From NCBI RefSeq assembly GCF_016889805.1, contig NZ_CP069535.1, forward strand, positions 3,534,001 through 3,598,000: a DNA stretch of 64,000 bases, written 5' to 3'. This stretch comes from Rhodanobacter sp. FDAARGOS 1247 (GTDB lineage: Bacteria > Pseudomonadota > Gammaproteobacteria > Xanthomonadales > Rhodanobacteraceae). Within the stretch, counting starts at the first letter, position 1. Each line of letters starts with the position of its first letter. This document shows, piece after piece, positions 33,543 through 49,983 of this stretch. The translations under genes and the position numbers were made by a program. Under the pieces are notes generated by a model. It searched no databases. It was given only the letters and a program-made list of their open reading frames with translations, and was not told the origin of the DNA.

Positions 33543-34280
33543 GTGCCTGCATTTTTGCGCAATGGCCTGTTCGCCGCCCTTTGCCTCATCTGTGGCGCCG
33601 CGATTGCGAGCGGCCTGCAGGTCTCGCCGGTCTCGCTCAGCCTGCAACCAGTGCAGAACGCCGAGGGCCTGTGGCTGAGCAATACTGGCGACAACATCGT
33701 GAATGCGCAGGTACGGGTCTATCACTGGACCCAGCAAGGCGGCGAAGAACAACTCACGCCTTCGCCGGGCCTGGTGATCAGTCCACCGATGTTGCGGATC
33801 AAGCCGGGCGACAAGCAGCTGATCCGGGTCATCCGGGTCGGCGCCCCGCCCAACGGGCCAGCTGCCGTCGAGGACGCGTATCGCCTGGCCATCGACGAAT
33901 TGCCCATCGACATGCATGGCAAGAAGGGCTTGCAGTTCGTATTGCACTACTCGGTACCGGTGTTTGTAGAACCCGTAGGCAACACCGCCACAGCGCCGCG
34001 GCTGAGCTGGAGTTTGCAGCGCGACGGCATTCACATGTTGCTGCAGGTTTCCAACTCCGGCACCGGTCATGCCCAGCTTGCCGAGGTGAGCTATGTGGAT
34101 GGCTCCGGCCATCGCACCGAGATCTCCGCCGGGTTGCTGGGCTATGTGCTGCCAGGTGCCACGATGCACTGGACATTGAAGCAGCCGGCAGCAGCGTTTG
34201 CCGGCAGCGGCACCTTCGAGGCAGTGATCAATGGCGTCAAGACCACCCAAAAGCTATCGCTGGCCAATCGCGCTCACTGA
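33543..34280 (+). CDS. Fimbrial periplasmic chaperone (CsuC/PapD-like)
   Basis: The 245-residue protein has a signal peptide (LFAALCLICGAAIASG) and a two-domain immunoglobulin-like chaperone fold. The N-terminal domain carries LQVSPVSLSLQPVQNAEGL and the edge motif PPMLRIKPGDKQLIRVIR, where Lys/Arg anchor the pilin C-terminus. It holds pilin subunits by donor-strand complementation in the periplasm. It starts with GTG 19 bases after the pilin stop and overlaps the usher gene by 50 bases. Confidence 0.88.
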   Translation: MPAFLRNGLFAALCLICGAAIASGLQVSPVSLSLQPVQNAEGLWLSNTGDNIVNAQVRVYHWTQQGGEEQLTPSPGLVISPPMLRIKPGDKQLIRVIRVGAPPNGPAAVEDAYRLAIDELPIDMHGKKGLQFVLHYSVPVFVEPVGNTATAPRLSWSLQRDGIHMLLQVSNSGTGHAQLAEVSYVDGSGHRTEISAGLLGYVLPGATMHWTLKQPAAAFAGSGTFEAVINGVKTTQKLSLANRAH

Positions 34281-36642
34281 AGTTTTGGTGTTTTGGCTGT
34301 TGTTTGCATCAACTGCTTGCGCAGACGCGGATTCTGCCGCGGCGCCTCACAGCAGTGCGATCGCCAGTCCCGCGTTTATCAGTGAATCACCGAATGCGAT
34401 GTCGGCCATCGGCGGCACCGATCTGTATCTCGACGTCACCCTTAATGGCAGCAACAACGGTCTGGCGCACTTTGGCTATCGCGATGGTGAGCTGTGGGCG
34501 AGTATGGCCACGTTGCGCCAGTTGGGCTTTGCACTACCGGCCAGTACGCTCGATCCCGTACGCCTGAACAGCCTGCAAGGCGTGCAGGTCAGTTACAACC
34601 AGGAACAGCAAAGCGTCGCCATAGTGGCACCGCTGAAGCTGCTGAACTTATCCACCCATGTACTGAACACATCACAGCAGACGGCTCAGAAAGCCAGCGC
34701 ATCACCCGGCCTGTTGCTCAATTACGATTTGTACGGGGCGTACGGTGAACGCGGCGCCAGCAGTTTGAGTGCGTTTACCGAACTTCGCGCTTTCGGCGAA
34801 AGTGGCGTACTGAGCAATACGTCGCTGTCCCGAATGGCACATGCCGACGGCGCGTGGCACAACCAGTCCGTTCGCATGGATACCAACTGGAGCAGGTCAT
34901 TCCCCGACAAGATGCTGACCCTGCGCGTGGGCGATACGCTTACGGCAGCCAGCTCATGGTCGCGCCCCACCCGTATCGGCGGCGTGCAGTTCGGTACCAA
35001 CTTTTCCCTGCAGCCATATCGCATCACCACCCCGTTGCCGCAATTTCTCGGCTCGGCCACCCTCCCTTCGCAAGTGGAGCTGTACGTCAACGGAATGAAG
35101 CAGTACAGCGGCAACGTTCCGGCCGGGCCGTTCCAGCTCGACACCATTCCCAGCATCAGCGGCGCCGGCCAGGCGCAAGTGATGCTGACCGATGCGCTGG
35201 GACGCGTGACCACGCTCGATTTTTCCCTGTACAACAGTCAGCAACTACTCCAGAAAGGATTGACCGACTGGTCGGCCGAACTGGGCGTCGTGCGTGAAAG
35301 CTACGGGTTGCACTCGTTTGACTACGGTCACGATCCCATTGGCAGTGGCACCTGGCGCCATGGCGTCAGCAACGATTTCACGGCCGAAGTTCATGGCGAG
35401 GCCACGGCCGGCTTGATCAACGCTGGCGCGGGAGGCAGCTGGTTGCTTGGCCGCGCAGGCGTGGTCTCCGGCTCTGTGGCGAGCAGCCAGCGTGCGGGTA
35501 TCAAAGGCTCCCAGCTCAGCCTCGGCTATAGCTGGTTGAACAGCCGCTTCAATTTCGCCGTTCAAGGCATGCGCGCCAGCAACGGCTATCGCGACGTCGC
35601 CGCACTGTACAGCGCTTCTCCAGCGAACCTCAGTGCCAGCGCACAGGGCGGCTTCAGCACGGAGCAACTCGGCAGCTTCGGCATGAGTTATGTGCAATTG
35701 CGCTACCAGGGACAAGTGGACACGCGCTATGCCAGCGCTTACTGGTACAAGTCGATCGGCCGCCAGATGTCATTGAACTTCAACGTGAACCAGAATCTTG
35801 GGCAATCACGCGACCGCAGCTTCTTTCTGAATGTCAGCCTGTCACTGGACAACAGCACCTATCTAAGCGCCGGCGTGCAGCACGACCACAGCGGCAACCG
35901 TTACAGCGTGAATGCCAGCCACTCCGTTCCCGGTGCCGGCGGCTTCGGCTGGCTCGCACAGGCGCAGCAGGGGGAAGGCAGCCATGGTGGTCGTGCCGAG
36001 CTGGATTATCTGGGCCGTTACGGCCAGGTCCAGGCCGGCGCCTCCAGCCTTGACGGCAATTTCTCTGGCTATGCCGGCGCCAATGGCTCGCTGGTATATA
36101 TGGGCGGCCACCTCTTCGCTTCACGGCGCATTTTTGATGGCTTCGCCGTTGTATCAACTGACGGCATCGCGAACGTACCAGTGCGGCTGGAAAACAATCC
36201 CATCGGAACTACCGACAAACACGGCATGATGCTGGTGTCTCCGTTGAATGCGTACCAAGACAATAGGCTCAGCATTGATCCAATGGATCTTCCCGCCGAC
36301 GTGCGCATTGCCCGCGTCGATGCCATCGCGACGCCCACCGACCGATCCGGCACCATGGTGCACTTTGGCATCACACCACTGCGTGCCGCAGCGATCACGT
36401 TGATCGATGCCACCGGCAAACCACTGGCGCTGGGCAGCATGGTGCAGGTGAACGGCCATACTGGTGAACCTGCGCTGGTCGGTTTCGACGGCGCGGCGTA
36501 TCTGGATACGCTGGACGTTCATAACGTGCTGGATGTCAACACGCCGAAGGGCATCTGCCACGCGCAATTCGATTATCAAAAGCGAGGTGACGGTGTTCCA
36601 CAGATTGGCCCGCTGACCTGTACCTACGGAGCTTCGCCATGA
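34231..36642 (+). CDS. Outer-membrane fimbrial usher (CsuD-like)
   Basis: The 803-residue usher has a signal peptide (VLVFWLLFASTACADA) and an N-terminal periplasmic domain with TDLYLDVTLNGSNNGLAHF. A long beta-barrel follows (about 150-650, with VELYVNGMKQYSGNVPAGPF in the plug region), then C-terminal domains ending in CHAQFDYQKRGDG. It forms the pore through which the pilus is assembled. The ATG at 34231 lies inside the chaperone gene; TTG at 34285 is an alternative. Its stop overlaps the start of the tip gene (ATGA). Confidence 0.88.
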   Translation: MASRPPKSYRWPIALTEVLVFWLLFASTACADADSAAAPHSSAIASPAFISESPNAMSAIGGTDLYLDVTLNGSNNGLAHFGYRDGELWASMATLRQLGFALPASTLDPVRLNSLQGVQVSYNQEQQSVAIVAPLKLLNLSTHVLNTSQQTAQKASASPGLLLNYDLYGAYGERGASSLSAFTELRAFGESGVLSNTSLSRMAHADGAWHNQSVRMDTNWSRSFPDKMLTLRVGDTLTAASSWSRPTRIGGVQFGTNFSLQPYRITTPLPQFLGSATLPSQVELYVNGMKQYSGNVPAGPFQLDTIPSISGAGQAQVMLTDALGRVTTLDFSLYNSQQLLQKGLTDWSAELGVVRESYGLHSFDYGHDPIGSGTWRHGVSNDFTAEVHGEATAGLINAGAGGSWLLGRAGVVSGSVASSQRAGIKGSQLSLGYSWLNSRFNFAVQGMRASNGYRDVAALYSASPANLSASAQGGFSTEQLGSFGMSYVQLRYQGQVDTRYASAYWYKSIGRQMSLNFNVNQNLGQSRDRSFFLNVSLSLDNSTYLSAGVQHDHSGNRYSVNASHSVPGAGGFGWLAQAQQGEGSHGGRAELDYLGRYGQVQAGASSLDGNFSGYAGANGSLVYMGGHLFASRRIFDGFAVVSTDGIANVPVRLENNPIGTTDKHGMMLVSPLNAYQDNRLSIDPMDLPADVRIARVDAIATPTDRSGTMVHFGITPLRAAAITLIDATGKPLALGSMVQVNGHTGEPALVGFDGAAYLDTLDVHNVLDVNTPKGICHAQFDYQKRGDGVPQIGPLTCTYGASP

Positions 36643-37676
36643 TCAGCTCGCCTCGACACCAGAATTTCCTTCCGCTATTGCTGCTACTTTCAATCTTGTG
36701 GTGGCTACCCGCTGGCCATGCTCAAGCCAGCGTTTACTGCTCGGCCACCATGACAAACATCAATTTCGGGACGGTGGATCCGACGCAAGGCGTTGTTACA
36801 CCGGCCAGAGGCACCCTGAGTTTCACTTGCCAGAACGACGCGTACTATCAAACGGCATACGTCACAGCTTGCTTGAATATCGGAGTCGGCAGTGGCACCA
36901 GTACAACGCCAAGAAGCATGAGCAATGGCAGCTCTCAGCTCAATTTTCAGCTATACAAGGACGCCGCACTTTCGCAAATCTGGGGTTCGATCGCTACTCC
37001 GGCCACGCCCCCACCAGCACCAATGACATTCACCATTCCCGGAGCCACCTTCTTCGGAGGTGTCGGCCAGTACCAAAGCCCGGACATCACTGTATTCGGC
37101 GCCTTGGCCGGGCCGCAGGTCAGCGCCGGCGCAGGCCCATACAACAACGCTTTTTCCGGTGCGGATGCTTTCCTTACAGGCACTGTCTCCAACGGTGGCC
37201 CCTATCCGCCAAGCTGTGGCGGGGGCACCTCGGGTATCCCCTTTCCATTCACCGTCAGTGCGCTGGTCTCGAAGTCGTGTACGGTTGCCGCAGGCCCCAC
37301 TCTCAACCTCGGTAATCCCGCTGGCGTGGACGCCGCGCTCACCAACATCACCGGCAGCAACAGCATCAACGTGACCTGCACGAACGGCACGCCGTACTTC
37401 GTGGGCCTCGCACCATCCAACAACAGCACGACCGGTGCTGGATTGATGGCAGGCTCCGGCAGCAACAGCGACAAGATTCCCTACCAATTGCGCTCGACAG
37501 CGGGCATGGCAGGAACCATCTGGGGCAATACCGCCACCTCGACCAGTGTCGGCAATGGCGTAGCCGGCACCGGAAATGGCAACAGCCAGTTGCTCACCGT
37601 GTACGCAACCACTCCTAGCGCTGACTTCACGCCGGACACCTATACCGACGTCGTCACGATCAACGTCAACTATTGA
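36639..37676 (+). CDS. Two-domain SCPU tip protein (CsuE-like)
   Basis: The 345-residue exported protein has a signal peptide (LLLLLSILWWLPAGHA) and two spore coat U domains, about 30-200 and 205-345. The second is a pilin-like domain ending PDTYTDVVTINVNY, much like the shaft pilin. Two-domain SCPU proteins such as CsuE cap the archaic pilus and bind abiotic surfaces through hydrophobic fingers of the first domain. That domain here is rich in Gly, Thr and Pro (TPATPPPAPMTF), consistent with adhesin loops. It is the last gene of the operon. Confidence 0.82.
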   Translation: MISSPRHQNFLPLLLLLSILWWLPAGHAQASVYCSATMTNINFGTVDPTQGVVTPARGTLSFTCQNDAYYQTAYVTACLNIGVGSGTSTTPRSMSNGSSQLNFQLYKDAALSQIWGSIATPATPPPAPMTFTIPGATFFGGVGQYQSPDITVFGALAGPQVSAGAGPYNNAFSGADAFLTGTVSNGGPYPPSCGGGTSGIPFPFTVSALVSKSCTVAAGPTLNLGNPAGVDAALTNITGSNSINVTCTNGTPYFVGLAPSNNSTTGAGLMAGSGSNSDKIPYQLRSTAGMAGTIWGNTATSTSVGNGVAGTGNGNSQLLTVYATTPSADFTPDTYTDVVTINVNY

Positions 37677-38162: not shown

Positions 38163-39227
38163 GTGAAGCAAGCGGGATATCACATGGTCGATCGCCGGGG
38201 CGTAGCACCCCTGGCGAACCTGTGTGTCCGCTTTGCCGGCCATGCCAAGGCATGGTTGCTCACTGCCCTGCTCCTGCTCGGATCGACAATCGCTGCCACG
38301 GCATCGGCGGCGAGGGTGGCGGCCGGCACGCAGGTGAACAACACGGTGACGGTGAGCTATGTGCAGGGTGGTGCCACGCTCACCGGCACGGCCAGCACGA
38401 GTTTCGTGGTCGATCAGCTGATCGACGTGACGACGACCTGGCAGGATGCCAAGCCGGTGCAGGCGGCGGCCGGATCGGTCAACCAGACCTTGCTGTTCCG
38501 GCTGACCAATACCGGCAACGGGAATGACAACTACAAGCTGGCGCCGACCGCCCTGCCCGCCAGCGGCACCGGTTTCGCGGTCGACCAGTGCAGGCTGTTC
38601 ATCGACCAGGATCGCAACGGCAGCTATTCCGGCAGCGACCCGGAATACGTGCCGGGCAACAACGACCCGGTTCTCGCCGCCGGCAGCTACATCGATGTAT
38701 TCGCCCTCTGCGCGCTGCCCGCCACGGCGAATGACGCCAGCCTCGCCACGGTCAGGTTGACCGCCACCTCGAACATCCTCAGCGGAACGCCAGGCAACTC
38801 CAGGGCAGCAACGGGCATACCCGGCATGAACGTGGTGGTCGGCATGAGCCATGGCCGCTCGTCATCCGACGGCACCTACCAGGCCAGCAGCGTCGGCTAC
38901 CAGTTCACCTCGACCCAGCGGGTGACGGACAGGTCCGGCGGCAGCGTAGCGACCTCCGGCTCACGCATCGTCTACACGATGACGGTCACCGGCAACGGCG
39001 GCAGCGCAGCCGGCCGCAACCTGATCGTCACCAATCCGATCCCCGAACACACCACCTACGACCCGGGCAGCCTGACCCTGGATGGCGTCGCCCTCGGTGA
39101 CGGCAACACCGACGGCGACGCCGGCGACTACAACGTCACGACGGCCAACGCCATCGCGGTCCGGCTGGGCAACATGCCCGGGACGGCCAATCCGCACACC
39201 ATCACTTTCGAAGTCACGATCAATTGA
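38163..39227 (+). CDS. Exported DUF11-type surface protein A
   Basis: The product (354 residues from GTG) has a long signal region ending near 49 (LLGSTIAATASAA), then a short module AAGTQVNNTVTVSYVQGG shared with two other proteins of the locus. A possible calcium loop DQDRNGSYSGSD follows near residue 158. The C-terminal DUF11 domain (about 260-354) contains MTVTGNGGSAAGRNLIVTNP and ends VTIN. DUF11 domains are Ig-like modules of bacterial surface proteins. ATG at 38184 is an alternative start. The next gene follows after 10 bases. Confidence 0.72.
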   Translation: MKQAGYHMVDRRGVAPLANLCVRFAGHAKAWLLTALLLLGSTIAATASAARVAAGTQVNNTVTVSYVQGGATLTGTASTSFVVDQLIDVTTTWQDAKPVQAAAGSVNQTLLFRLTNTGNGNDNYKLAPTALPASGTGFAVDQCRLFIDQDRNGSYSGSDPEYVPGNNDPVLAAGSYIDVFALCALPATANDASLATVRLTATSNILSGTPGNSRAATGIPGMNVVVGMSHGRSSSDGTYQASSVGYQFTSTQRVTDRSGGSVATSGSRIVYTMTVTGNGGSAAGRNLIVTNPIPEHTTYDPGSLTLDGVALGDGNTDGDAGDYNVTTANAIAVRLGNMPGTANPHTITFEVTIN

Positions 39228-39237
39228 GGTCACGAAC

Positions 39238-39732
39238 ATGAAATCGATCCGCATCCCCCTTCTTGCACTTGGCCTGCTTGCCGCGTTTGCGCTGCAGGCA
39301 GCACCGGCTAAGGGCAGCATCGAGCTGCAGTCGGTGGCCACGCAGCAGAAAGTCACCGTGGAAAAGGACGGCAGCAAGCACACCGAAATGGTGCCGGCTG
39401 CACGCGTGGTTCCCGGCACCGAAGTCACCTACACCATCAACTACCACAACGTCGACGCGAAGCCGGCGGACGACGTGGTGATCAACAACCCGGTGCCTGC
39501 GCACATGGATTACGTCGCGGACTCGGCGACGGGCGCGAACACCACCATCAGCTACTCGGCCGATGGCGGCAAGACGTGGGCCGGCACGCTGGCGCAGCTG
39601 TCGGTGAAGAACGCCGACGGCAGCCTGCGCCCGGCCACCGAGAAGGATTGCACCCACATCCGCTGGGTGGTGAACGGCAAGGTCGCGCCCGGCGCGAAGG
39701 GTTCGGTGAGTTTTCGTGCGGTGCTGCAGTAA
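39238..39732 (+). CDS. Exported single-domain DUF11 protein B
   Basis: The 164-residue product has a signal peptide (IPLLALGLLAAFALQAAPA) and one DUF11-type domain with VPGTEVTYTINYHNVDAKPA and VVINNPVPAHMDYVADSATG, ending GKVAPGAKGSVSFRAVLQ. It is the smallest of the set and could be a repeating or capping subunit. Function is inferred only from context. It is followed by a 343-base noncoding stretch. Confidence 0.72.
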   Translation: MKSIRIPLLALGLLAAFALQAAPAKGSIELQSVATQQKVTVEKDGSKHTEMVPAARVVPGTEVTYTINYHNVDAKPADDVVINNPVPAHMDYVADSATGANTTISYSADGGKTWAGTLAQLSVKNADGSLRPATEKDCTHIRWVVNGKVAPGAKGSVSFRAVLQ

Positions 39733-40075
39733 CTCGGGGTTCTGCAGCACGGCAATGACATGACAAAGGGGTCAGTTCACAGGTTTTGCTGACCGGGCCG
39801 AGCAGGCCCGGTTACTCGGGGAGCATGGCGTTGTGACGTAACCGCCGACGGGGCAAGCCCGCACGGCTCGGGGTGTTCACGCACTGCTAGGTAGATGCCG
39901 GCCAGGCACGACGTGTCTGGCCGCAGAGGGAAGTGCGTGCCGAAAACACGCAAGCGACACGGGCCAACGGCGCAAGAACCGACGTCCCGGCAACACGGCC
40001 AGCCAGGCATGGCGACACCGATCCGCATGGCCAGCGGATCAACAGTCCTGAAAAACCTTTACAGAGGAAACACTC
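39733..40075. other. Hairpin-rich leader ahead of DUF11 protein C
   Basis: No gene is seen in these 343 bases. They contain several inverted repeats: GGTCAG/CTGACC (about 39775-39794), CCGGGCC/GGCCCGG (39793-39811), GGCCAGGCAC/GTGTCTGGCC (39900-39922), and TGCGTG/CACGCA around 39934-39952. A GAGGAAAC ribosome binding site precedes the ATG at 40076. A structured 5' leader or an attenuator is likely; its class is unknown. Confidence 0.45.
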
Positions 40076-41212
40076 ATGAAGCATCTCAATCGAGCCAGGC
40101 TCGCCTCGACCTTGATGGTCGGCGCGTTGCTTGGGCTGGGGTCGATGGCGGCGAATGCCGCCACCACCGCCGGCACGGATGTCAGCAATACCGCCACGGT
40201 GGCTTACAAGGTCGGCACGGTCGACCAGACCCCCATTACCAGCAACACCGTCACCTTCAAGGTTGATGCGAAACTCATCCTCAGCGTCACCAAGTTGGAC
40301 GGCACGATCATTGAGACACAGCCGGGCAGCACGACCGCTGTGACCAAGTTCAAGGTTCAAAACGACGGCAACCAAACACAGGACGCCGTCCTGTCCGCCG
40401 TCAACATGGCATCTGGCTCGGCCAATCCGTTTGGCACACCGGCCAACTCCAACCTCGCCATCGTGACTTCCAAGGTGTACGCCGATACCAACGGCAACAA
40501 CACCTACGATGCCGGCACCGATCTGCAGATCTCTGTATTGAGCAACCTCGCTGTCGGCAGTGCTGGCGCCAAGACCGTGTTCGTCGTCGCCACGATCCCC
40601 GCGACCGCAACCGATTCCCAGGTAGCGGTGGTGGGTCTGCTTGCCAAGGTCGGTACCGCCGGCAGCGGCGCCGCGCTCGCCACTGACGACTCCGGCAGTG
40701 CCTGGACCGCAGGTACCGTGCAGAACATCTTTGCGGAAGCGGCATCGGCCCATCCGGCAACGGGTGACAGCGGACAGTACGACGGTGCTGCTTCGGATCT
40801 CGACGCCTATCTCGTGAAATCGGCCTCGTTGACCATCAACAAGTCCTCCAAGGTGCTCAGCGATCCGACCGGCGCGGCGATTCCCCATGCCATCCCGGGT
40901 GCTGTCATGCAGTACACCATCACGGTTGCCAATGCGTCCGGCGCCAGCACCAACGCTTCGGCCATCGCGATCAACGACAGTCTGGCGTCGATGCTGACCA
41001 ACGTGACCTGGAATACGGGAACGCTGAAGGTCACCACCACCGGTACCGGCAATGCAACGGGCTCCTGCGCGGACGCAGGTTCCACGCTGACGGCCACCAG
41101 CCCGTACACGGCGGTGACCTGCGGATACAGCAGCCAGACCGTGTCGGTATCCGGCATCACGCTGAAGCCGAGCGACACCGCGACAATCACGTTCAACGTC
41201 ACCATCAACTGA
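40076..41212 (+). CDS. Exported DUF11-type surface protein C
   Basis: The 378-residue product has a signal peptide (LMVGALLGLGSMAANA-A) and the shared opening module TAGTDVSNTATVAYKVG followed by SNTVTFKVDAKLILSVTK. A possible calcium loop DTNGNNTYDAGTD is near 142. The C-terminal DUF11 domain (about 250-378) contains AIPGAVMQYTITVANASGAS and ends ATITFNVTIN. Its layout parallels protein A: module, middle domain with the Asp/Asn loop, DUF11, and the same C-terminal VTIN. Confidence 0.72.
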   Translation: MKHLNRARLASTLMVGALLGLGSMAANAATTAGTDVSNTATVAYKVGTVDQTPITSNTVTFKVDAKLILSVTKLDGTIIETQPGSTTAVTKFKVQNDGNQTQDAVLSAVNMASGSANPFGTPANSNLAIVTSKVYADTNGNNTYDAGTDLQISVLSNLAVGSAGAKTVFVVATIPATATDSQVAVVGLLAKVGTAGSGAALATDDSGSAWTAGTVQNIFAEAASAHPATGDSGQYDGAASDLDAYLVKSASLTINKSSKVLSDPTGAAIPHAIPGAVMQYTITVANASGASTNASAIAINDSLASMLTNVTWNTGTLKVTTTGTGNATGSCADAGSTLTATSPYTAVTCGYSSQTVSVSGITLKPSDTATITFNVTIN

Positions 41213-41341
41213 CGGCGGACTGATCGCACCGTGTTCCACACTCTGCTCAGGATTTCAGGACTGCGCTCGCGCACGGGTCGGCAACGACCCGCGCGCGACG
41301 CGCTTCTGTGCCTGCAGCACGCAGGTACGCACGATGAATGC

Positions 41342-44300
41342 ATGGACAAGTCGCGGTTGATGCACGAAGTTTCCGCATCGACCCGCCTTGCCAAAGCCTC
41401 TTCCCCCCGCAAGGGCCGGGCAGGACGTTTTGGCAAGGTGTGGCTGCTGGCCAGCCTCACCCTGTCGGCACTGCCGGTCGCATGGGCGGCCACGCCCACG
41501 CCGCCGGGCACCATCATCAACAACCAGGCGACGCTCACCTGGCAGGGTCCGGTCGGCTCCGCCGGACTGAACGAAGCACCCACGTTTTCGCTGACCACCG
41601 CCCAGGCCACGCCGGTGACCGGCGCGCGCACGCCGTCGAGCGCGGTGTTCCTGACCTACGCACAGGGTTCCACCAGCGCACTGATCGGCCCGACCCAGTG
41701 CAGCCGCGATGGCGGCGCCACGTTCAACGCCCTGCCGGCACCGTTGTCGGCGCAGGGCACCAAGCTGGACCCGAACAGCGCGCAGCCGCTGGGCCCGGCG
41801 CAGATGTATTACCCGGGCGACCCGGTGTTCGTGCAGATCACCGACCACGACCAGAACCTCAACCCGCTGGCGCGCGAAACGATTCTGGCCACCGTGGCGG
41901 TCGCCGGCAGCAGCCAGTCGGTGACCGTGCGCCTGACCGAGAATGGCCCGGACAGCGGCATCTTCACCGGTTACGTGCCCAGCAGCAGCGACGCCGGTAC
42001 CGCCTGCGCACTGAGCCTGCAGCCGAACCAGCATCTGGAGCTGCACTACACCGACATCGCCGACGCCAGCGACACGGCTGCCACGCAGGCGCTGGTGAGC
42101 CCGTACAACGTGGTGTTCGACGCCACCACCGGCGCGCGCATCAATGGCGCGAAGATCACCCTGGTCGACGCGGACACCGGCATCGCCGTGGCCCATGTCA
42201 CCGGTCGCGACGGCGTCAGCAACTTCCCGTCGAGCGTGACCTCGGGACAGAGTGTCACCGACAGCTCCGGTGCCACTTACAGCGCCTCCGCTGGCGCGTT
42301 CCTGCTGCCGCAGGTGCCCGCGGGTCGCTACCGCTTGCAGGTGGTGCCGCCGGCCGGCTATCGCTATGCGTCGACGGCCACCCAGGCCGCCCTGCAGCAG
42401 CTGGCCGGCGCGCCGTACGCGCTGGGGCCGGCTTCGTTCGAACAGACCTTCACCCTGGCCAGCACGCAGCCGATCGGCTTCGACATTCCGCTGGACCCGG
42501 TTTCCAGCAGCCTGTTCGTGCAGAAGACCGCCTCGGTGAACGTCGCCGCGGTGGGCGACATGATCCAGTTCACCGTGGCGGTGGAGAACAGCGACAAGGT
42601 GGGCGTGGCCCAGGATGTGCGCCTGGTCGACACCTTGCCGCAGGGCTTCCGCTACGTGAAGGGGTCGGCACGCATCGGCACGAGCAAGGCCGCCGATCCG
42701 CAGATCGCCGCGAACGGCCAGCAATTGCAGTTCGACCTGGGCAACATCGACAAGTCCAGCCAGCTGCAGCTGACCTATGTCACCGAAGTCACCGCAGCCA
42801 CCCCGCTGGGTGCATCGATCAATCGTGCGCAAGGCCTTGCCGATGGCGGCACCGCTTCGAACATCGCCACCGCGCAGGTGGAGATCCAGAACGAGCTGAT
42901 GCAGGACGTGAACACCGTGATCGGTCGCGTGCTGGTCGGCTGCGATTCGCACGAGGGTCTGGCCGGCGTGCGCGTGCTGATGGAGGACGGCAGCTACGTG
43001 GTCTCCGACAAGGATGGCCGCTTCCACTTCCAGGCCGTGAAGAACGGCACCCACGTGGTGCAGCTGGATACCGACAGCCTGCCGCAGGGTTACGCGGTCG
43101 ATGACTGCGAGCGCAACACGCGTTTCGCCGGGCGCAGCTACTCACAGTTCGTCGAACTGCATGGTGGTGCGTTGTGGCGCGCCGATTTCCACGTGCGCCG
43201 GCTGCCGCCGCCGACCGGCCATGTTGCCGTGCAGCTGGCACAGCAGGCTGATGGCGCATTGATCCACAACACGCTGACGCTGGCGGTCGAGCAGGTGCCG
43301 GTGAGCAAGCTGAGCGCCACCGTGCTGGTGCCGGCCGGCGCGCATTACGTCGATGGCTCGGCACGGCTCGACGGTCACGCGTTCGCCGCGCCCGACGCGA
43401 TGGATGGCGCCCTGGTATTCCGCCTCGGCGACCGCGCCGCCGGATGGCAGGGCAAGTTGAGCTTCGATCTGCAGTCGAAGGCGGATGTCACCGCCGCGCT
43501 GTCCACGCAGGCACTGATCAATTTCGACACGCCCGGGGCCGCCCACCAGCACACGCCGCCGGCGTCCGTGTTGCTGTCCGCGCACGGCGCCGCCCGCTCC
43601 GACCTGCAGCAGGTCGCCACGCTGGGCCTGGCCCCGTCCGCCGCGAAAACCGCGACGGCGGAACCTGTGCAGACTGACAAGAACGCGGATGACGAAGCGC
43701 TGGCCGACCACTTCCAGCTGAACATGCAGCAAGTGGAAAGCGCCGGATCGCAGGCCGGATTCATCTGGCCCGACGCCAGCTATTCGCCGTCCGTGCCCAG
43801 CATCAAGGTGGCGGTCAGGCACGGCCCGAAACAGCAGGTGCGGTTGTCGGTGAACGGCACGCCGGTGTCGTCGCGCAACTTCTCCGGCGCCAAGCTCAAC
43901 GCCGCCCATACCGTCGCTGCCAGCGAATGGCTGGGCGTGCCGCTGGTGGAAGGCGACAACACCTTGCTTGCGGAAATCACCGAAGGCGGCAAGGTGGTGC
44001 AGCGCGTCGAGCACCAGGTGCACTACTCCGGCGTGCCGGTGCGCGCGGAACTGGTGCTGGACCAATCCAGCCTGGTCGCCGACGGCAAGAGCCGCCCGCG
44101 TCTGGCCATCCGCCTGTACGATCGCTGGGGCTATCCGGTGCGTCGCGGCATGACCGGCCGTTACACGCTGCAATCCCCCTACCAGCCGTACCAGAGCCAG
44201 CAGGAATTGCAGGACAACCAGCTGTTGGCGATCGCCCCGCGCGAACCGAAGTACACGGTAGGCGAGGATGGCATCGCCCAGCTGGAACTGGCCCCGACCA

Positions 44301-47104
44301 CCGTGTCGGGCCAGGTCATGGTGAGCATCCCGCTGCAGAACGACACCCGTCAGGATCTGCGCGCGTGGATGCAGCCGGGCAAGCGCGACTGGATCCTGGT
44401 CGGCGTGGCCAACGGCACCGCCGCGTTCAACGGCATCCGCGGGCATATCGAGAACGTGTCAGGCAACGATCCGAACCGCGACCTGTTCCAGGACGGCCGC
44501 ATCGCGCTGTACGCCAAGGGCATGATCAAGGGCCAGTACCTGCTGACCGCCGCCTACGATTCGGCCAAGGCCAGCGGCGCCGATCGCGCCACGCTCAACG
44601 GCCTGCAGCAGAGCGTCGATCCGAACCAGTACTTCATGCTGTACGGCGACGCCGCCGAGCAGGGCTACGACGCGTCCAGCGCCAGCAAGCTGTACCTGAA
44701 GATCGAACGCGGCCAGTTCTACGCGATGTTCGGCGACTTCGACACCAACCTCAACGTCACCGAGCTGTCGCGTTACGACCGCCGCTTCAACGGCGTGCAG
44801 AGCGCCTACGAAAGCAGGCACCTGGGCTACACCGCGTTCGCCGCGCGCAACGCGCAGTCCTATGTGCACGACGAGATCCAGGGCAACGGCACCTCGGGCA
44901 TGTACCACCTGGCGCGCCAGCAGATCCTGCTGAACTCCGAGCGCATCCGCCTGGAAACGCGCGACCGTTACCACAACGAGCGCGTGATCAGCACGCAGCA
45001 GCTGAGCAGCTACCTCGATTACACGCTGGACTATTACAGCGGCGCGCTGTTCTTCAAGCAGCCGGTGCCCAGCTTCGACGAGAACATGAACCCGGTCTAC
45101 ATCGTGGCCGAGTACGAAGTGATGCGCGCCGGCGACCAGTCGATCACCGCCGGCGGCCGCGTGGCGGTGAAGGCGGCCGGCGACCGGCTGGAACTGGGCG
45201 TGACCATGGTCAACGAAGGCGCCGACACCGGCAGCAATCGCCTGGGCGGCGCCGACCTGCGGGTGAAGCTGACCAGCACCAGCGAACTGAAGGCCGAGGT
45301 GTCGCACACTTCGTCAGCGGCCGGCACCGCCAACCTGCTGACCGGTTTCAACAACGTGCCCGGCGCCAGCACCTCCACCACCGCGCAAGGTTCCGGCACG
45401 GCCTATCTGATGACCTTGCAGAACCACGGCAAGCGGCTGGAGAGCGAGCTCTACCTGCGCCAGCTCGGCGTGGGTTTCGGGCTGGGCCAGCAGTCGCTGG
45501 GCCAGGGCGGCACGCGCAAGTTCGGCGGCAACGCGCGCTACCTGCTGGACAAGCACTGGTCGCTGCAGATGGAAGCCTATCGCGAGCAGTCGCTGCAGCT
45601 GGCCAGCGCGCGCACCGTGGCCGATGCGGGCGTGCGCTACCAGGCCAGCAATCACTCGCTGACCATGGGCCTGCGCCACGTCAGCGATGACTACCCGCAG
45701 GCCGGCGCGACGGTTGCCGACCCGAACAACGGCGGCGTCACCAGCGGCATCCTCGGCAATGGCCTGGGCACCCTGGCCAGCGGCAGTGCCGACCAGGTCT
45801 ACCTGGGCGGCAGCACCGGCATCTTCGACAACAAGGTGACCCTGCACGGCATCACCAGCCAGAACATCGCCGGCAACGACCCGGCCTACCCGGCCAGCAC
45901 CTTGCTGGGCGTCGACTACAAGATGACCGACGCGGCCACCCTGTTCGTCAATCAGCAGTTCAACGACGGCGCCCAGCAGCAGTACAGCCGGATGACCGAA
46001 CTGGGCGTGCGGGCCACGCCGTGGCAGCGCGCGCAACTGACCAACTCGATCGGCCAGCAGATGACCGAATACGGTCCGCGCACGTTCTCCACCTCCGGGC
46101 TCACCCAGGGCTGGCAGGTCAGCAAGTCGCTGACCCTCAGCGCCGGCCTGAACCAGGTGAAGTCGCTGCATCGCCCGGAAGCACCGACCACCGGCACCAC
46201 CGCCGACGGCCAGGCCGTCCCGGTGGCGGGCGCGCTCAATGCGGCCACGCCCTCGATCGCCGGCTCGGCCACCGAAGACTTCACCTCGATGTTCCTCGGC
46301 AGCACCTGGCGCCAGAAGGACTGGTCATGGACCAGCCGCGTCGAGTCGCTGCGTTCCACCAGCGAAAAGCGGATCGGCCTGTTCGGCGGTTTCTACCGCG
46401 ACCTGTCCGCCGGCAACGCGTTCTCCAGCACCTTGCAGGCGTTCGACAGCCGCTTCAGTCCCGGCGGCAAGTCCAGCAATGCGACCTTGCGTTTCAGCTT
46501 CGCGCACCGCCCGGACGACGCTCGCTGGTCGCTGCTGGAGCAACTCGACCTGAGCTGGAACAACCAGCAGGGCCTGTCCGTGTCACCGTTCCTGCAGCAG
46601 GGCAGCACCGGCATCGCCGCCAGCCAGCAGAGCCCGCAACAACTGGCCGGCGCGCTGGGCAGCTCCGGCACGTTCGGCATCAACCAGCAGACCGCCAAGC
46701 TGGTCAACAACCTGCAGGCCAACTACCGCGGCGACCACTCGCAGTGGTCGATCTACTACGGCTCGAAGTACGCACGCTACAAGTTCGACAGCGGCAACTA
46801 CGCCGGCTACACCGACCTGATCGGCAGCGAATTCCGCTACGACGTATCCGAGCACTGGGACGTCGGCGTGATCGCCAGCCGCATGCACTCGTACCGCTCC
46901 GGCGTATCCAGCAGCAGCCTCGGCCTGGAAACCGGCTGGGACGTCGGCACCAACATGTGGCTCAGCGTGGGCTACAACTTCAAGGGCTACTACGACCAGG
47001 ACTTCACCGCCGCGCACTACACCGCGAAAGGCATGTTCCTGCGCTTCCGCTTCAAGTTCGATCAGGATACGGTGAGGGCGATGGCAGAAGGAATGAGCCG
47101 ATGA
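41342..47104 (+). CDS. Giant DUF11/Cna-B protein with C-terminal outer-membrane beta-barrel
   Basis: The 1920-residue product has a signal peptide ending near 50 (WLLASLTLSALPVAWA-A) and the shared module PPGTIINNQATLTWQGP. A region near 160-215 reads DQNLNPLARETILATV. Two Cna-B/SdrD-like domains follow (about 256-370 and 513-585, DKDGRFHFQAVKNGTH), with a DUF11 domain between (about 385-510, TPLGASINRAQG), then Ig-like parts to about 1010. From about 1016 to the end, alternating aromatic/polar strands rich in Gly, Tyr and Gln finish with KGMFLRFRFKF, as in an outer-membrane barrel. GTG at 41231 is an alternative start. The stop overlaps the next ATG. Confidence 0.78.
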   Translation: MDKSRLMHEVSASTRLAKASSPRKGRAGRFGKVWLLASLTLSALPVAWAATPTPPGTIINNQATLTWQGPVGSAGLNEAPTFSLTTAQATPVTGARTPSSAVFLTYAQGSTSALIGPTQCSRDGGATFNALPAPLSAQGTKLDPNSAQPLGPAQMYYPGDPVFVQITDHDQNLNPLARETILATVAVAGSSQSVTVRLTENGPDSGIFTGYVPSSSDAGTACALSLQPNQHLELHYTDIADASDTAATQALVSPYNVVFDATTGARINGAKITLVDADTGIAVAHVTGRDGVSNFPSSVTSGQSVTDSSGATYSASAGAFLLPQVPAGRYRLQVVPPAGYRYASTATQAALQQLAGAPYALGPASFEQTFTLASTQPIGFDIPLDPVSSSLFVQKTASVNVAAVGDMIQFTVAVENSDKVGVAQDVRLVDTLPQGFRYVKGSARIGTSKAADPQIAANGQQLQFDLGNIDKSSQLQLTYVTEVTAATPLGASINRAQGLADGGTASNIATAQVEIQNELMQDVNTVIGRVLVGCDSHEGLAGVRVLMEDGSYVVSDKDGRFHFQAVKNGTHVVQLDTDSLPQGYAVDDCERNTRFAGRSYSQFVELHGGALWRADFHVRRLPPPTGHVAVQLAQQADGALIHNTLTLAVEQVPVSKLSATVLVPAGAHYVDGSARLDGHAFAAPDAMDGALVFRLGDRAAGWQGKLSFDLQSKADVTAALSTQALINFDTPGAAHQHTPPASVLLSAHGAARSDLQQVATLGLAPSAAKTATAEPVQTDKNADDEALADHFQLNMQQVESAGSQAGFIWPDASYSPSVPSIKVAVRHGPKQQVRLSVNGTPVSSRNFSGAKLNAAHTVAASEWLGVPLVEGDNTLLAEITEGGKVVQRVEHQVHYSGVPVRAELVLDQSSLVADGKSRPRLAIRLYDRWGYPVRRGMTGRYTLQSPYQPYQSQQELQDNQLLAIAPREPKYTVGEDGIAQLELAPTTVSGQVMVSIPLQNDTRQDLRAWMQPGKRDWILVGVANGTAAFNGIRGHIENVSGNDPNRDLFQDGRIALYAKGMIKGQYLLTAAYDSAKASGADRATLNGLQQSVDPNQYFMLYGDAAEQGYDASSASKLYLKIERGQFYAMFGDFDTNLNVTELSRYDRRFNGVQSAYESRHLGYTAFAARNAQSYVHDEIQGNGTSGMYHLARQQILLNSERIRLETRDRYHNERVISTQQLSSYLDYTLDYYSGALFFKQPVPSFDENMNPVYIVAEYEVMRAGDQSITAGGRVAVKAAGDRLELGVTMVNEGADTGSNRLGGADLRVKLTSTSELKAEVSHTSSAAGTANLLTGFNNVPGASTSTTAQGSGTAYLMTLQNHGKRLESELYLRQLGVGFGLGQQSLGQGGTRKFGGNARYLLDKHWSLQMEAYREQSLQLASARTVADAGVRYQASNHSLTMGLRHVSDDYPQAGATVADPNNGGVTSGILGNGLGTLASGSADQVYLGGSTGIFDNKVTLHGITSQNIAGNDPAYPASTLLGVDYKMTDAATLFVNQQFNDGAQQQYSRMTELGVRATPWQRAQLTNSIGQQMTEYGPRTFSTSGLTQGWQVSKSLTLSAGLNQVKSLHRPEAPTTGTTADGQAVPVAGALNAATPSIAGSATEDFTSMFLGSTWRQKDWSWTSRVESLRSTSEKRIGLFGGFYRDLSAGNAFSSTLQAFDSRFSPGGKSSNATLRFSFAHRPDDARWSLLEQLDLSWNNQQGLSVSPFLQQGSTGIAASQQSPQQLAGALGSSGTFGINQQTAKLVNNLQANYRGDHSQWSIYYGSKYARYKFDSGNYAGYTDLIGSEFRYDVSEHWDVGVIASRMHSYRSGVSSSSLGLETGWDVGTNMWLSVGYNFKGYYDQDFTAAHYTAKGMFLRFRFKFDQDTVRAMAEGMSR

Positions 47105-49983
47105 CACTGCGTCCCGCTTCGATGACAGATCGCCCCTTGCCGAAAAAGCCGTCCGTTATGCGCTCGCAGGCTGCGCTGATGCGCGGCCTGCAGAAGCTGG
47201 GGTTGGCGCTGTTGCTGCTTTGTGGCTGGCTGTTTGCGGCACCTGCCATGGCGGCCAGCTGTGGTCCGGCCACGGGACAAGGCAGCGCGCCGGCCGATTA
47301 CTCCACCTACTGCTGGCTGGATTTCTCCACCTACAACGACGCCACGGCGCGCAGCAGCGCGGGGCAGAACTTTGTCTTCAACCTGCCTGGCGGTGCGACG
47401 CTCAGTTTCACCGTCAAGGCTTCCGGAACCAACATGGCCGCCGTGGCATCGCCTTCGTGGAGCGGCGCCGCTTTTGGCTATGCAGCCTTCAACGGCATTC
47501 CCGGGCGACCCGTGCTGTATGGCACAGGCACCGGCACCAGCAACTTCAGTTTCACCAACATCGTCCTGTCAGTTAACGGCGCCACCAATGTCCCTTACGC
47601 CCTGGTGGCGGCCGACGGCGAATCGAGCAACAGCGGCGAGAGCTTGAAGTTCACCACCAATGGCAATCCGTGGACGCAACTGGCGCAGATGTCGAATGGC
47701 GGCGCGATCTATCCCACGCTGACTGGTGTGGGCACCGGCACCGTGACCGAGACCGGTGTGGACGGCACCGTTGGCAGTTACGCGTTCGCCACCACCGGCA
47801 GTCCAACCACCATAACAACGACGATGGTCAACGGTGGCCTGCAGGGCGCACTGTTCGGGGTGAAGTTCTACGCTGCCGACCTGATCATCACCAAGTCCCA
47901 TACCGGCGACTTCATCGCCGGCGGCACCGGCAGCTACAACCTGCTGGTGCACAACAACGGACCCGATGCGGCGCAAGGCGTCACCACCGTCACCGACACG
48001 CTGCCTGCCGGACTCACCTATGCCTCGGCCAGCGGCAGCGGCTGGACCTGCGCCGCCGCGGGTCAGCTGGTCACCTGCACCAGTACGAACACGGTCGCCA
48101 GCGGCGCCAACCTGCCGGCGATCACGCTGAACGTGAACGTCGCCGCGAGCGCGGCGGCGTCGATCAGCAACACCGCAACGGTCAGCAACGCGAACTACAA
48201 CTACAACACCAGCAATGACAGCAGCACCGACCCGACCACCATCATCCACTCGGACCTGTCCAACTCGACCAAGACCGTGCTGGACACCAACGGCGGCGAC
48301 GCCAACCCCGGCGACACGCTGCGTTACACGATCACCCTGATCAACAACACCGCCGCCGTAGCCAGCGGGGTCAGCGTCAGCGATGACATGCCAGCCGGCG
48401 TGGGCGGCCTCAACGTGATCAGCACGCCCACCGGCAGCAGCAACGGCAGCACCAGCAGCGGCGGTGTCAACGGCACCGGCAAGGTCAGCGTGAGCGGTAT
48501 CAGCGTGCCGGCCAACGGCAGCGTCACCATCGTCTACGACGTCACCGTGTCCGGCAGCGATGCGCCGGGGTTCACTATCGACAACAGCGCGACGGTAAAC
48601 AATCCCAACGGCACCGGCTCAACGCCCGCTGCGCCTACCGTGATCGTCTCCCAAACATTGGTGGCGCCGCCAGTCACCGGCAACAAGATTCTCTACGTGC
48701 AAGACGCGGGTACCTTGACCCGTACTCCACAAACATCGAACAGCACAAATGGCTCGCGCACGGGGATCAATGGTGGCGGTGACTCAGCCACATGGAACCT
48801 GGCCCCGGTCATTGCCACCGGCAAGACGCTGGCCATTCCTGCACAAACGATCACGGTGCAACTGGTTATAGCCGCGACCGGTGACTACACCGGATCTAAC
48901 CGGAGCGTCGTCGTCACGTTGTTCAACGGAGGCACCTCCATCGGGAGCGACACCGAAAACGTTTCTGGTGGAAATACTCTCTACACGTTCCAGATACCGG
49001 TTACGGCGCAAACCATTGGCCAGGGAAGCGGCCTGAATCTGCTGGTTACCAATAACGGCTCCAACAACTGGTGGAACGGCAACCGATCCATTGCCGTTTC
49101 CCAGAAAACCAACGGACAAGGTGCCAGCACCGTCACGGTCTACACCACCACCGTCATCAATGTGGACAGCGTCTCCGTTTACTCGGCGGCATATGGGTCT
49201 GTCACAACCAAGGCGACATATGCTCCGGGCGACCATGTATACGTGCGAGCCGTCATCAGCGATCCCTTTGGCCAGTACGACATCACCAACGCAACACTGA
49301 CTCTCACCGATCCCAACAATGCGACTCCTGTAAACGGCGTGAACATGAGCCGGGTCGATTCGGCCACGAGCGGCGCGACAAGGATCTTTGAGTACGACTA
49401 CACGGTACCAAGTGGCGCCAAGACCGGCACGTGGCGCGCAGCCGTTACAGGCATCGAGGGCTCCGAAGGTACCGTCACGCATACGCGCACCGGCTTGTTC
49501 GAAGTGGCGCTCCCGCAACCCAATCTGCTGGTGATGAAATCAGTCACCGTGGCGACTGATCCCACCTACTGCACCACAGCCGGCAATCCCGCCAGTTGTT
49601 CAGTACCCGCGGGCAAGGCGATGCACTCCCTTCCTGGCGCGGCAGTGCAATACACCATCAACGTCAGCAACAACGGCGTGGGTCCTGCGGACAACAACAG
49701 CCTGGTGATCACCGACCCGATCCCGGCCAACTCAAAGTTCGTGCTGGGCAGCGTTGCTTTCACCGACGGCACGCCCAGCAGCGGGCTGACGTTTGCGCCG
49801 GCCAACGTGACCTACTCCGGCGTGGGCAGCGCCGGGCCATGGACTTACACCCCGGCCAATGACGGCAGCGGCGCGGATGCCGGCGTGAAGGCGCTGAGGA
49901 TCGCCCCGCAGGGCATCATGGCCGGCAAGAGCGGCGCCACCGCACCGAACTTCTCGGTGACGTTCCGCGTGATCATCCTGTAG
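47101..49983 (+). CDS. Exported multi-DUF11 protein D
   Basis: The 960-residue product has a signal peptide ending near 52 (LALLLLCGWLFAAPAMA-A) and an N-terminal beta-rich domain (53-255). DUF11 domains lie at about 259-375 (ADLIITKSHTGDFIAGGTGS) and 385-515. An unlike domain at about 520-805 is encoded by more A/T-rich DNA, and a final DUF11-type domain (806-960) follows. No anchor or sorting signal is visible. It starts at the ATG overlapping the barrel-gene stop (ATGA), so it is made together with the barrel protein and is its likeliest cargo or partner. Confidence 0.78.
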   Translation: MTLRPASMTDRPLPKKPSVMRSQAALMRGLQKLGLALLLLCGWLFAAPAMAASCGPATGQGSAPADYSTYCWLDFSTYNDATARSSAGQNFVFNLPGGATLSFTVKASGTNMAAVASPSWSGAAFGYAAFNGIPGRPVLYGTGTGTSNFSFTNIVLSVNGATNVPYALVAADGESSNSGESLKFTTNGNPWTQLAQMSNGGAIYPTLTGVGTGTVTETGVDGTVGSYAFATTGSPTTITTTMVNGGLQGALFGVKFYAADLIITKSHTGDFIAGGTGSYNLLVHNNGPDAAQGVTTVTDTLPAGLTYASASGSGWTCAAAGQLVTCTSTNTVASGANLPAITLNVNVAASAAASISNTATVSNANYNYNTSNDSSTDPTTIIHSDLSNSTKTVLDTNGGDANPGDTLRYTITLINNTAAVASGVSVSDDMPAGVGGLNVISTPTGSSNGSTSSGGVNGTGKVSVSGISVPANGSVTIVYDVTVSGSDAPGFTIDNSATVNNPNGTGSTPAAPTVIVSQTLVAPPVTGNKILYVQDAGTLTRTPQTSNSTNGSRTGINGGGDSATWNLAPVIATGKTLAIPAQTITVQLVIAATGDYTGSNRSVVVTLFNGGTSIGSDTENVSGGNTLYTFQIPVTAQTIGQGSGLNLLVTNNGSNNWWNGNRSIAVSQKTNGQGASTVTVYTTTVINVDSVSVYSAAYGSVTTKATYAPGDHVYVRAVISDPFGQYDITNATLTLTDPNNATPVNGVNMSRVDSATSGATRIFEYDYTVPSGAKTGTWRAAVTGIEGSEGTVTHTRTGLFEVALPQPNLLVMKSVTVATDPTYCTTAGNPASCSVPAGKAMHSLPGAAVQYTINVSNNGVGPADNNSLVITDPIPANSKFVLGSVAFTDGTPSSGLTFAPANVTYSGVGSAGPWTYTPANDGSGADAGVKALRIAPQGIMAGKSGATAPNFSVTFRVIIL

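Follow-up and report, generated by a model that had tools for sequence, protein, structure and literature searches.

How might five neighbouring genes act together at the cell surface when each encodes an exported protein with DUF11-type domains and one of the products is a giant protein of barrel character, and what would hold these products to one another? The question is raised by five open reading frames (ORFs), here called A to E, which lie on the same strand and span positions 38163-49983 of a 64,000-nucleotide stretch (hereafter the window) of contig NZ_CP069535.1, positions 3,534,001 to 3,598,000, from the soil bacterium Rhodanobacter sp. FDAARGOS 1247. The genome comprises 3.92 Mb in 2 contigs; a whole-genome search returned a single match for D, and all 5 of the PF01345 matches in the genome fall inside the A-E locus. 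We propose, with some reserve, that the products of A to E assemble into a surface fibre or adhesive arm and that a DUF11 (CLIPPER) domain split between chains links one subunit to the next. The proposal builds on three observations, namely gene order, complementary truncation and a partition of conserved residues between chains. Truncated terminal domains are called acceptors below, and the hairpins that match their missing part are called donors.

38163 to 39227, forward strand: gene A, 354 amino acids (aa); mature N-terminal donor hairpin and C-terminal acceptor DUF11 (ORF, TIGR01451, hhalign)
39238 to 39732, forward strand: gene B, 164 aa; one truncated DUF11, acceptor only, with Asn83 at the Asp position (PF01345)
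40076 to 41212, forward strand: gene C, 378 aa; donor hairpin, middle domain and acceptor DUF11
41342 to 47104, forward strand: gene D, 1920 aa; donor hairpin, SpaA-like, DUF11, carboxypeptidase-regulatory-like and second DUF11-like domains, and a barrel-like C-terminus
47101 to 49983, forward strand: gene E, 960 aa; CshA_NR2, three DUF11 and MG2 domains, and an acceptor C-terminus

An initial annotation of this DNA had placed five genes at positions and lengths that match the ORFs found (a GTG-started ORF of D extends back to 41231), and the ATGA overlap by which it coupled the barrel gene to the 960-aa gene is present at the D/E junction as GCCGATGACAC. The signal peptides that it had assigned correspond to signal-peptide-like N-termini in 5/5 proteins, judged by eye only. 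DUF11 content was likewise recovered: B, D (residues 391-513) and E pass PF01345 in Pfam, A passes NCBIfam TIGR01451 only, and A and C are matched by profile-profile comparison, C giving nothing above cut-off in either Pfam or NCBIfam. Besides DUF11, Pfam finds CshA_NR2 and MG2 in E, and SpaA and CarboxypepD_reg in D. The account of D as Ig-like, DUF11 and Cna-B domains joined to a half of barrel character is borne out in that its DUF11, SpaA-like and carboxypeptidase-regulatory-like domains are found by Pfam and its barrel character by fold searches. A split DUF11 domain with a divided triad of residues as the likely joining mechanism is new here and was absent from that annotation.

A DUF11 domain and its triad apparently partitioned between chains

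A DUF11 profile of 141 columns was built from 71 domains of the large non-D proteins of D loci, and profile-profile comparison was used because single profile hidden Markov model scoring was uninformative for short hairpins. The C-terminal domain of A covers profile columns 5-93 (4.1e-12) and that of C columns 1-93 (9.5e-14), while B aligns to columns 7-52 and its final sliding window ends at column 92; the terminal DUF11 of all three thus stops at column 92-93 of 141. The same terminal strand pattern ends 27/28 E-type proteins, gene E included, by pattern comparison, E having stood outside the profile-profile run. The N-terminal modules take up where these domains stop, matching columns 94-110 in A (P 3.5e-4), columns 95-109 in C (P 2.1e-3; 94-109 in sliding windows) and columns 94-112 in D (P 6.4e-3).

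38310 to 38420, forward strand: donor hairpin of A (residues 50-86), with Asn60; profile columns 94-110
38889 to 39224, forward strand: acceptor DUF11 of A (residues 243-354), columns 5-93; Ser250 and Asn291 replace Lys and Asp
40160 to 40267, forward strand: donor hairpin of C (residues 29-64), with Asn38; columns 95-109 and 94-109
40814 to 41209, forward strand: acceptor DUF11 of C (residues 247-378), with Lys256 and Asp301; columns 1-93
41492 to 41626, forward strand: donor hairpin of D (residues 51-95), with Asn61; columns 94-112
49522 to 49980, forward strand: acceptor DUF11 of E (residues 808-960), with Lys813 and Asp872; by comparison of E-type proteins

A sliding-window control with 55-residue windows covered A (27 windows), C (29), B (14) and the first 420 residues of D (32), a range that leaves the internal DUF11 of D mostly outside. 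In A, C and D the windows at the N-terminus begin at column 94 or 95, and no match beyond column 93 occurs in any of the 14 B windows or in any later A or C window; in D one extra window touches columns 103-109 (P 0.14). Partial, overlong or misplaced C rows were omitted throughout (1 from the end-strand survey, 6 from the donor-Asn count and 3 from the sliding-window test). Since acceptors end at about column 93 and donors start at about column 94, each hairpin would be expected to supply what is missing from the C-terminal domain of a neighbouring subunit, and we consider donor-acceptor joining of this kind to be probable. An N-terminal donor and a truncated Ig-like acceptor are present at the sequence level, and a structure model described below backs one junction.

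The N-termini of E-type proteins are varied and show no donor motif by eye, and a loose motif search matched a few. Three such proteins (L013 8194-10977, L046 4434-6878 and L070 2106-6911) differ at their N-termini and are alike at the C-terminal end, where a P-x-G is followed by a strand like F-x-V-x-F-R-V-R-V; this end could serve to find tip proteins elsewhere.

The residues of a known covalent bond are divided in the same way. In the solved DUF11 structure 9IFR, Lys715 is bonded to Asn806, presumably with Asp748, according to the available text of PMC12617251; by chain count, using the offset at which Lys715 and Asn806 agree with the paper, the Asp is residue 749 rather than 748. When 9IFR is aligned to the DUF11 profile, N806 falls on the Asn of an I-x-N-x-A strand, so that the isopeptide Asn position lies in the donor strand of A, C and D. 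This Asn is retained in 35/38 A, 50/51 C and 56/59 D proteins. The A acceptors hold Lys and Asp together in 36/38 cases, and the two with neither, from the source genome and R. spathiphylli (L010), are of one lineage; in the source-genome A the triad Lys and Asp are replaced by Ser (38910-38912) and Asn (39033-39035). Among E-type proteins, a set of 28 that remained from 33 DUF11 proteins of at least 450 aa after removal of two contig-open proteins, two C proteins and one D piece, Lys and Asp occur in 25/28; two lack Asp and one row is incomplete. Because of gaps left by a 150-residue cut, Lys seemed to be missing from five C rows and one E row; it is invariant in the 40-row alignment of C described next. 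B has Asn at the Asp position in 40/50 proteins, and its Lys is not fixed.

That alignment (A5) has eight invariant columns, three of which are Asn38, Lys256 and Asp301 of C. The internal DUF11 of D, invariant for Lys395, Asp430 and Asn494 in 25 rows, holds the whole triad in one chain; for the terminal domains the triad Asn is found in another gene or at the opposite end of the chain. Since the donor supplies the Asn and the acceptor the Lys and Asp, a Lys-Asn bond between chains should form on insertion, and a covalent isopeptide link between subunits seems to us rather more credible than its absence. To judge from their residues, the acceptors of C and E in this genome could become covalent and that of A should not.

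The same parts might also assemble without any bond, the donors completing the acceptors of other subunits and the Lys, Asp and Asn being kept for packing or hydrogen bonds. The split domain and the structure model also fit such non-covalent complementation, and the source-genome A and the B family keep the truncated domain without the Lys/Asp pair. It is nevertheless an unlikely explanation given that Lys, Asp and Asn are all among the eight invariant columns, and that the two A proteins without Lys are also without Asp, though these two represent one lineage.

In a tethered AlphaFold model of C with D, the hairpin of D appears docked on C at moderate confidence and is aligned together with the C acceptor (VIA gives first and last aligned residues only), so that docking of the D hairpin on the acceptor is what the model predicts. 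A first alignment of C with D (A4) placed most D rows on C and was discarded, and cobra venom factor, the sole result of the PDB search with A5 (E 0.17), was taken as a chance match.

Several observations weigh against the proposed fibre. The D hairpin block has a predicted local distance difference test (pLDDT) score of 49-71 in the tethered model, the hairpin of C itself scores 92-95 and may pack elsewhere, the tether favours contact, and the top Foldseek matches of the model are integrins and complement, at TM-scores of 0.1-0.2. Support from the hairpin P-values is modest (3.5e-4 to 6.4e-3), and the donor and acceptor families are not independent, A and C being paralogues. A and C each have a middle domain that is itself DUF11-like. 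The source-genome A lacks Lys and Asp, which rules out a covalent link for at least one junction in this genome. A is uncounted in 12/49 of the loci surveyed below, and a sortase-family match lies at C1:628457-628822, unlinked to the locus.

The high score of the C hairpin and the DUF11-like middle domain, which has no match past column 93, would also suit a hairpin acting in cis, that is, one that rests against the middle domain or closes the C-terminal domain of the same chain; the C-terminal DUF11 would then be short but complete and there would be no head-to-tail chain. We think this improbable. D has a donor, yet its windows 73-238, within the first 420 residues, contain no significant DUF11 (P >=0.055) on which the hairpin could act; B and the E-type proteins have acceptor ends and no donor; and the model aligns the D hairpin with the acceptor of C.

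Conservation of gene order around D

A scan of public genomes with D gave 458 encoding stretches, and the locus counts rest on the best 80 of these 458. The D ORF is present in 77/80 (L015, L019 and L030 have none at 1e-10). Gene order was counted in the 49 loci where 3.2 kb or more of sequence precedes D, which excludes loci with shorter flanks and L052, where D is broken into two ORFs and shows a stretch of N or stops. C lies directly before D in 49/49, and upstream of D in these loci B is found in 48 and A in 37; far from never lying near DUF11 genes, the circumstance that the initial annotation had named as telling against itself, the barrel gene thus adjoins one in every locus counted. 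Among the loci without a counted A, a larger DUF11 protein takes its place in L034 and L089, an E-like gene stands on the opposite strand in L041, L058, L060, L062 and L065, no A was seen in L022, L024, L027 and L033, and overlapping ORF calls kept both A and B of L057 out of the counts. The records are titled Rhodanobacter, Luteimonas, Ramlibacter, Polaromonas, Steroidobacter, Woeseiaceae, Geobacter, Desulfuromonadales, Nitrospirota and Zetaproteobacteria.

D and B were also searched separately in a control sample of 369 genomes of the same class chosen regardless of the locus. A strong D occurs in 27, B in 27 and both in 24 (Fisher 2.7e-31, the source genome counted), under a strong-D limit (E <=2.1e-108) chosen after the list was seen; at the preset limit of 1e-20 a D match, in many cases to the OmpA part only, is found in 63/369 genomes, covering 26/27 B genomes. 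The pair lies on one contig, 1.3-4.4 kb apart, in 20/24 genomes and on separate contigs in 4/24. Strong D without B is seen in G065, G197 and G234, and B without strong D in G137, G258 and G319. Any D-like match occurs in just 5/45 genomes of the genus Rhodanobacter, so that the locus is patchy, and the nearest named relatives of D, among the matches listed, are from Rhodanobacter. Relatives of D number 383 at E <=0.001 among 7988 scored candidates.

A-B-C-D is a widespread unit. The five-gene arrangement first described does exceed chance, but the unit is better described as A-B-C-D accompanied by a variable E-type adhesin, whose gene may stand upstream or downstream of it. In R. spathiphylli (G042, the same place as L010) E directly follows D and is 76% identical, a gene that the locus-wide E surveys missed and a separate comparison found. 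A variant in G029 and G041 reads B'-C'-D', in which C' (883-886 aa) carries a donor at one end and an acceptor at the other, and D' also has a donor. Neighbours of the D loci were clustered in search of partner genes outside A-E, and of ten proteins sampled by Pfam seven were housekeeping or regulatory (helicase, TsaD-fold, PhoR-like kinase, sigma-54 activator, PEPCK, MutL, GGDEF/EAL), two were E-like DUF11/DUF7933 proteins and one had no match.

A proposed fibre with D at its base

The remaining features bear on how such a fibre would be anchored and what it would bind.

42512 to 42880, forward strand: internal complete DUF11 of D (residues 391-513), with Lys395, Asp430 and Asn494 (PF01345)
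43232 to 43558, forward strand: second DUF11-like domain of D (about residues 631-739; own profile, 2e-21)
44792 to 47053, forward strand: barrel-like region of D (residues 1151-1904; AlphaFold2, fold searches)
47305 to 47862, forward strand: CshA_NR2 domain of E (residues 69-254; PF18651, 5.1e-19)

AlphaFold2 of D residues 861-1920 predicted 32 strands, which start at model residue 391, with a mean pLDDT of 69.2 and a low predicted template modelling score (pTM 0.42), and the Foldseek and VIA matches listed for it are nearly all membrane beta-barrels. Pfam finds in D neither the usher domain PF00577 nor the OmpA-like peptidoglycan-binding domain PF00691. The OmpA-like domain of most relatives is missing in D (~740-880, 43559-43981) and from the seven closest relatives listed.

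Under the fibre reading, signal peptides, judged by eye, would take the subunits across the inner membrane. A, B, C and E would each end in an acceptor, a DUF11 lacking its last two strands, and the mature N-termini of A, C and D would be those strands, each donor entering the acceptor of the next distal subunit to complete the fold. On insertion the Asn of one chain would meet the Lys and Asp of another, and a Lys-Asn bond could form spontaneously. E, with an adhesin-type domain and an acceptor only, would be the tip, its CshA_NR2 domain being the likely binding part; C and A, with donor and acceptor, would be shaft or adaptor subunits that hand donors to their distal neighbours; D, with a donor only and the putative barrel, would be the base in the outer membrane and supply the last donor; and B, an acceptor only without Lys or Asp, may cap free donors non-covalently. 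The D barrel is the obvious candidate for the outer-membrane crossing and may export the DUF11 subunits; in relatives that have an OmpA domain, which should face the peptidoglycan, the donor would either work in the periplasm or pass through the barrel. Bond formation, subunit order, copy number and export route are what we infer in this scheme. The barrel-anchored DUF11 surface complex envisaged by the initial annotation fits the evidence, including the constant adjacency of C and D, and is partly supported overall.

A role of D chiefly as an export channel or a porin-like member of the OmpA family, with A, B, C and E as unjoined substrates or independent adhesins, is very doubtful: its barrel-like part resembles LptD, SlpA, SprA, AlgE and others in fold searches, many relatives are named OmpA family protein, and PF00691 is carried by 98 of the 120 relatives listed (own count), but the meeting of donor and acceptor ends at one point of the DUF11 profile would be left unexplained, and export by D is compatible with a split-DUF11 fibre and may be an additional role. 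A chaperone-usher origin, suggested by the Csu-like cluster noted below, was rejected, since a comparison of the window's usher, chaperone and spore-coat-U (SCPU) proteins with 891 ORFs of 89 loci, in which a distant chaperone could be missed, found relatives beside D only in L010 (E <=1e-3).

SpyTag/SpyCatcher and related pairs are isopeptide domains in two parts that rejoin covalently; they were engineered from whole domains, whereas the split in A-E appears natural. The split-DUF11 fibre also resembles the Acinetobacter adhesin B9T28_05395, whose CshA_NR2-like tip and DUF11 stalk recall E and whose DUF11 fold and Lys-Asp-Asn isopeptide triad, as in 9IFR, are those considered here. In that adhesin, however, the domain is whole, the bond is intramolecular and the OmpA-like anchor is in the adhesin's own chain, whereas the A-E domain is divided between chains; the accessible portion of that paper describes no split or intermolecular DUF11 (PMC12617251). 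In chaperone-usher pili the Ig-like fold of a subunit is completed by the N-terminal donor of the subunit proximal to it, with an acceptor-only tip adhesin and an outer-membrane barrel (described in part in PMC9715654). The A-E unit differs in having no PapD-like chaperone or PF00577 usher, and in its two-strand donor, DUF11 fold, predicted covalent bond and donor on the barrel protein.

As far as its published description goes, the archaeal thread Saci_0406 is the nearest precedent for strand donation combined with an intermolecular isopeptide bond, by a different chemistry. Its proposed bond joins Asn57 to the N-terminal amino group of Asp24 two subunits away and is not a Lys-Asn bond, and it is archaeal, heavily glycosylated and donates a single N-terminal strand (PMC9715654, available sections). 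Type V (Bacteroidales) pili, in the same sections, share strand donation outside the chaperone-usher pathway and are set apart by their description as lipoprotein precursors cut by a protease. DUF11 forms part of the anchor of F-ENA fibres, according to the accessible part of a preprint. Within the literature searched, with most subscription papers and bioRxiv outside its scope, the A-B-C-D unit and a split DUF11 are undescribed, and nothing was found on DUF11 in Rhodanobacter or on TIGR01451 in an outer-membrane operon.

The balance tips slightly towards a new class of Gram-negative covalent fibre, a natural tag/catcher chain that uses neither chaperone nor sortase and ends at a giant barrel protein; no LPxTG-type sorting motif was found in A-E. 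By its sequences, this putative class is found in many Proteobacteria and in Nitrospirota-titled records. If so, it would be a natural counterpart of engineered tag/catcher chemistry and a possible source of new protein-ligation pairs, and it would add another route to covalent surface fibres beside sortase linkage and plain strand exchange. DUF11 would then serve assembly besides stiffening, and many proteins named OmpA family or TIGR01451 repeat would acquire a testable function.

A Csu-like cluster of a PapD-type chaperone, an usher and a spore-coat-U protein occupies 33543-37676 and ends ~0.5 kb upstream of A; R. spathiphylli (L010) also has such a cluster, and the other searched loci are without one. 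C and D share one reading frame, with a single TGA and 43 open codons between them (41210-41341), as they also do in 16 related loci, so that occasional read-through would tether C to D. In another layout, seen in a genome of the genus Rhodanobacter (G004; L097 2184-14425), a 2669-aa DUF11 protein overlaps a 1411-aa barrel-like protein, possibly a different use of the same barrel.

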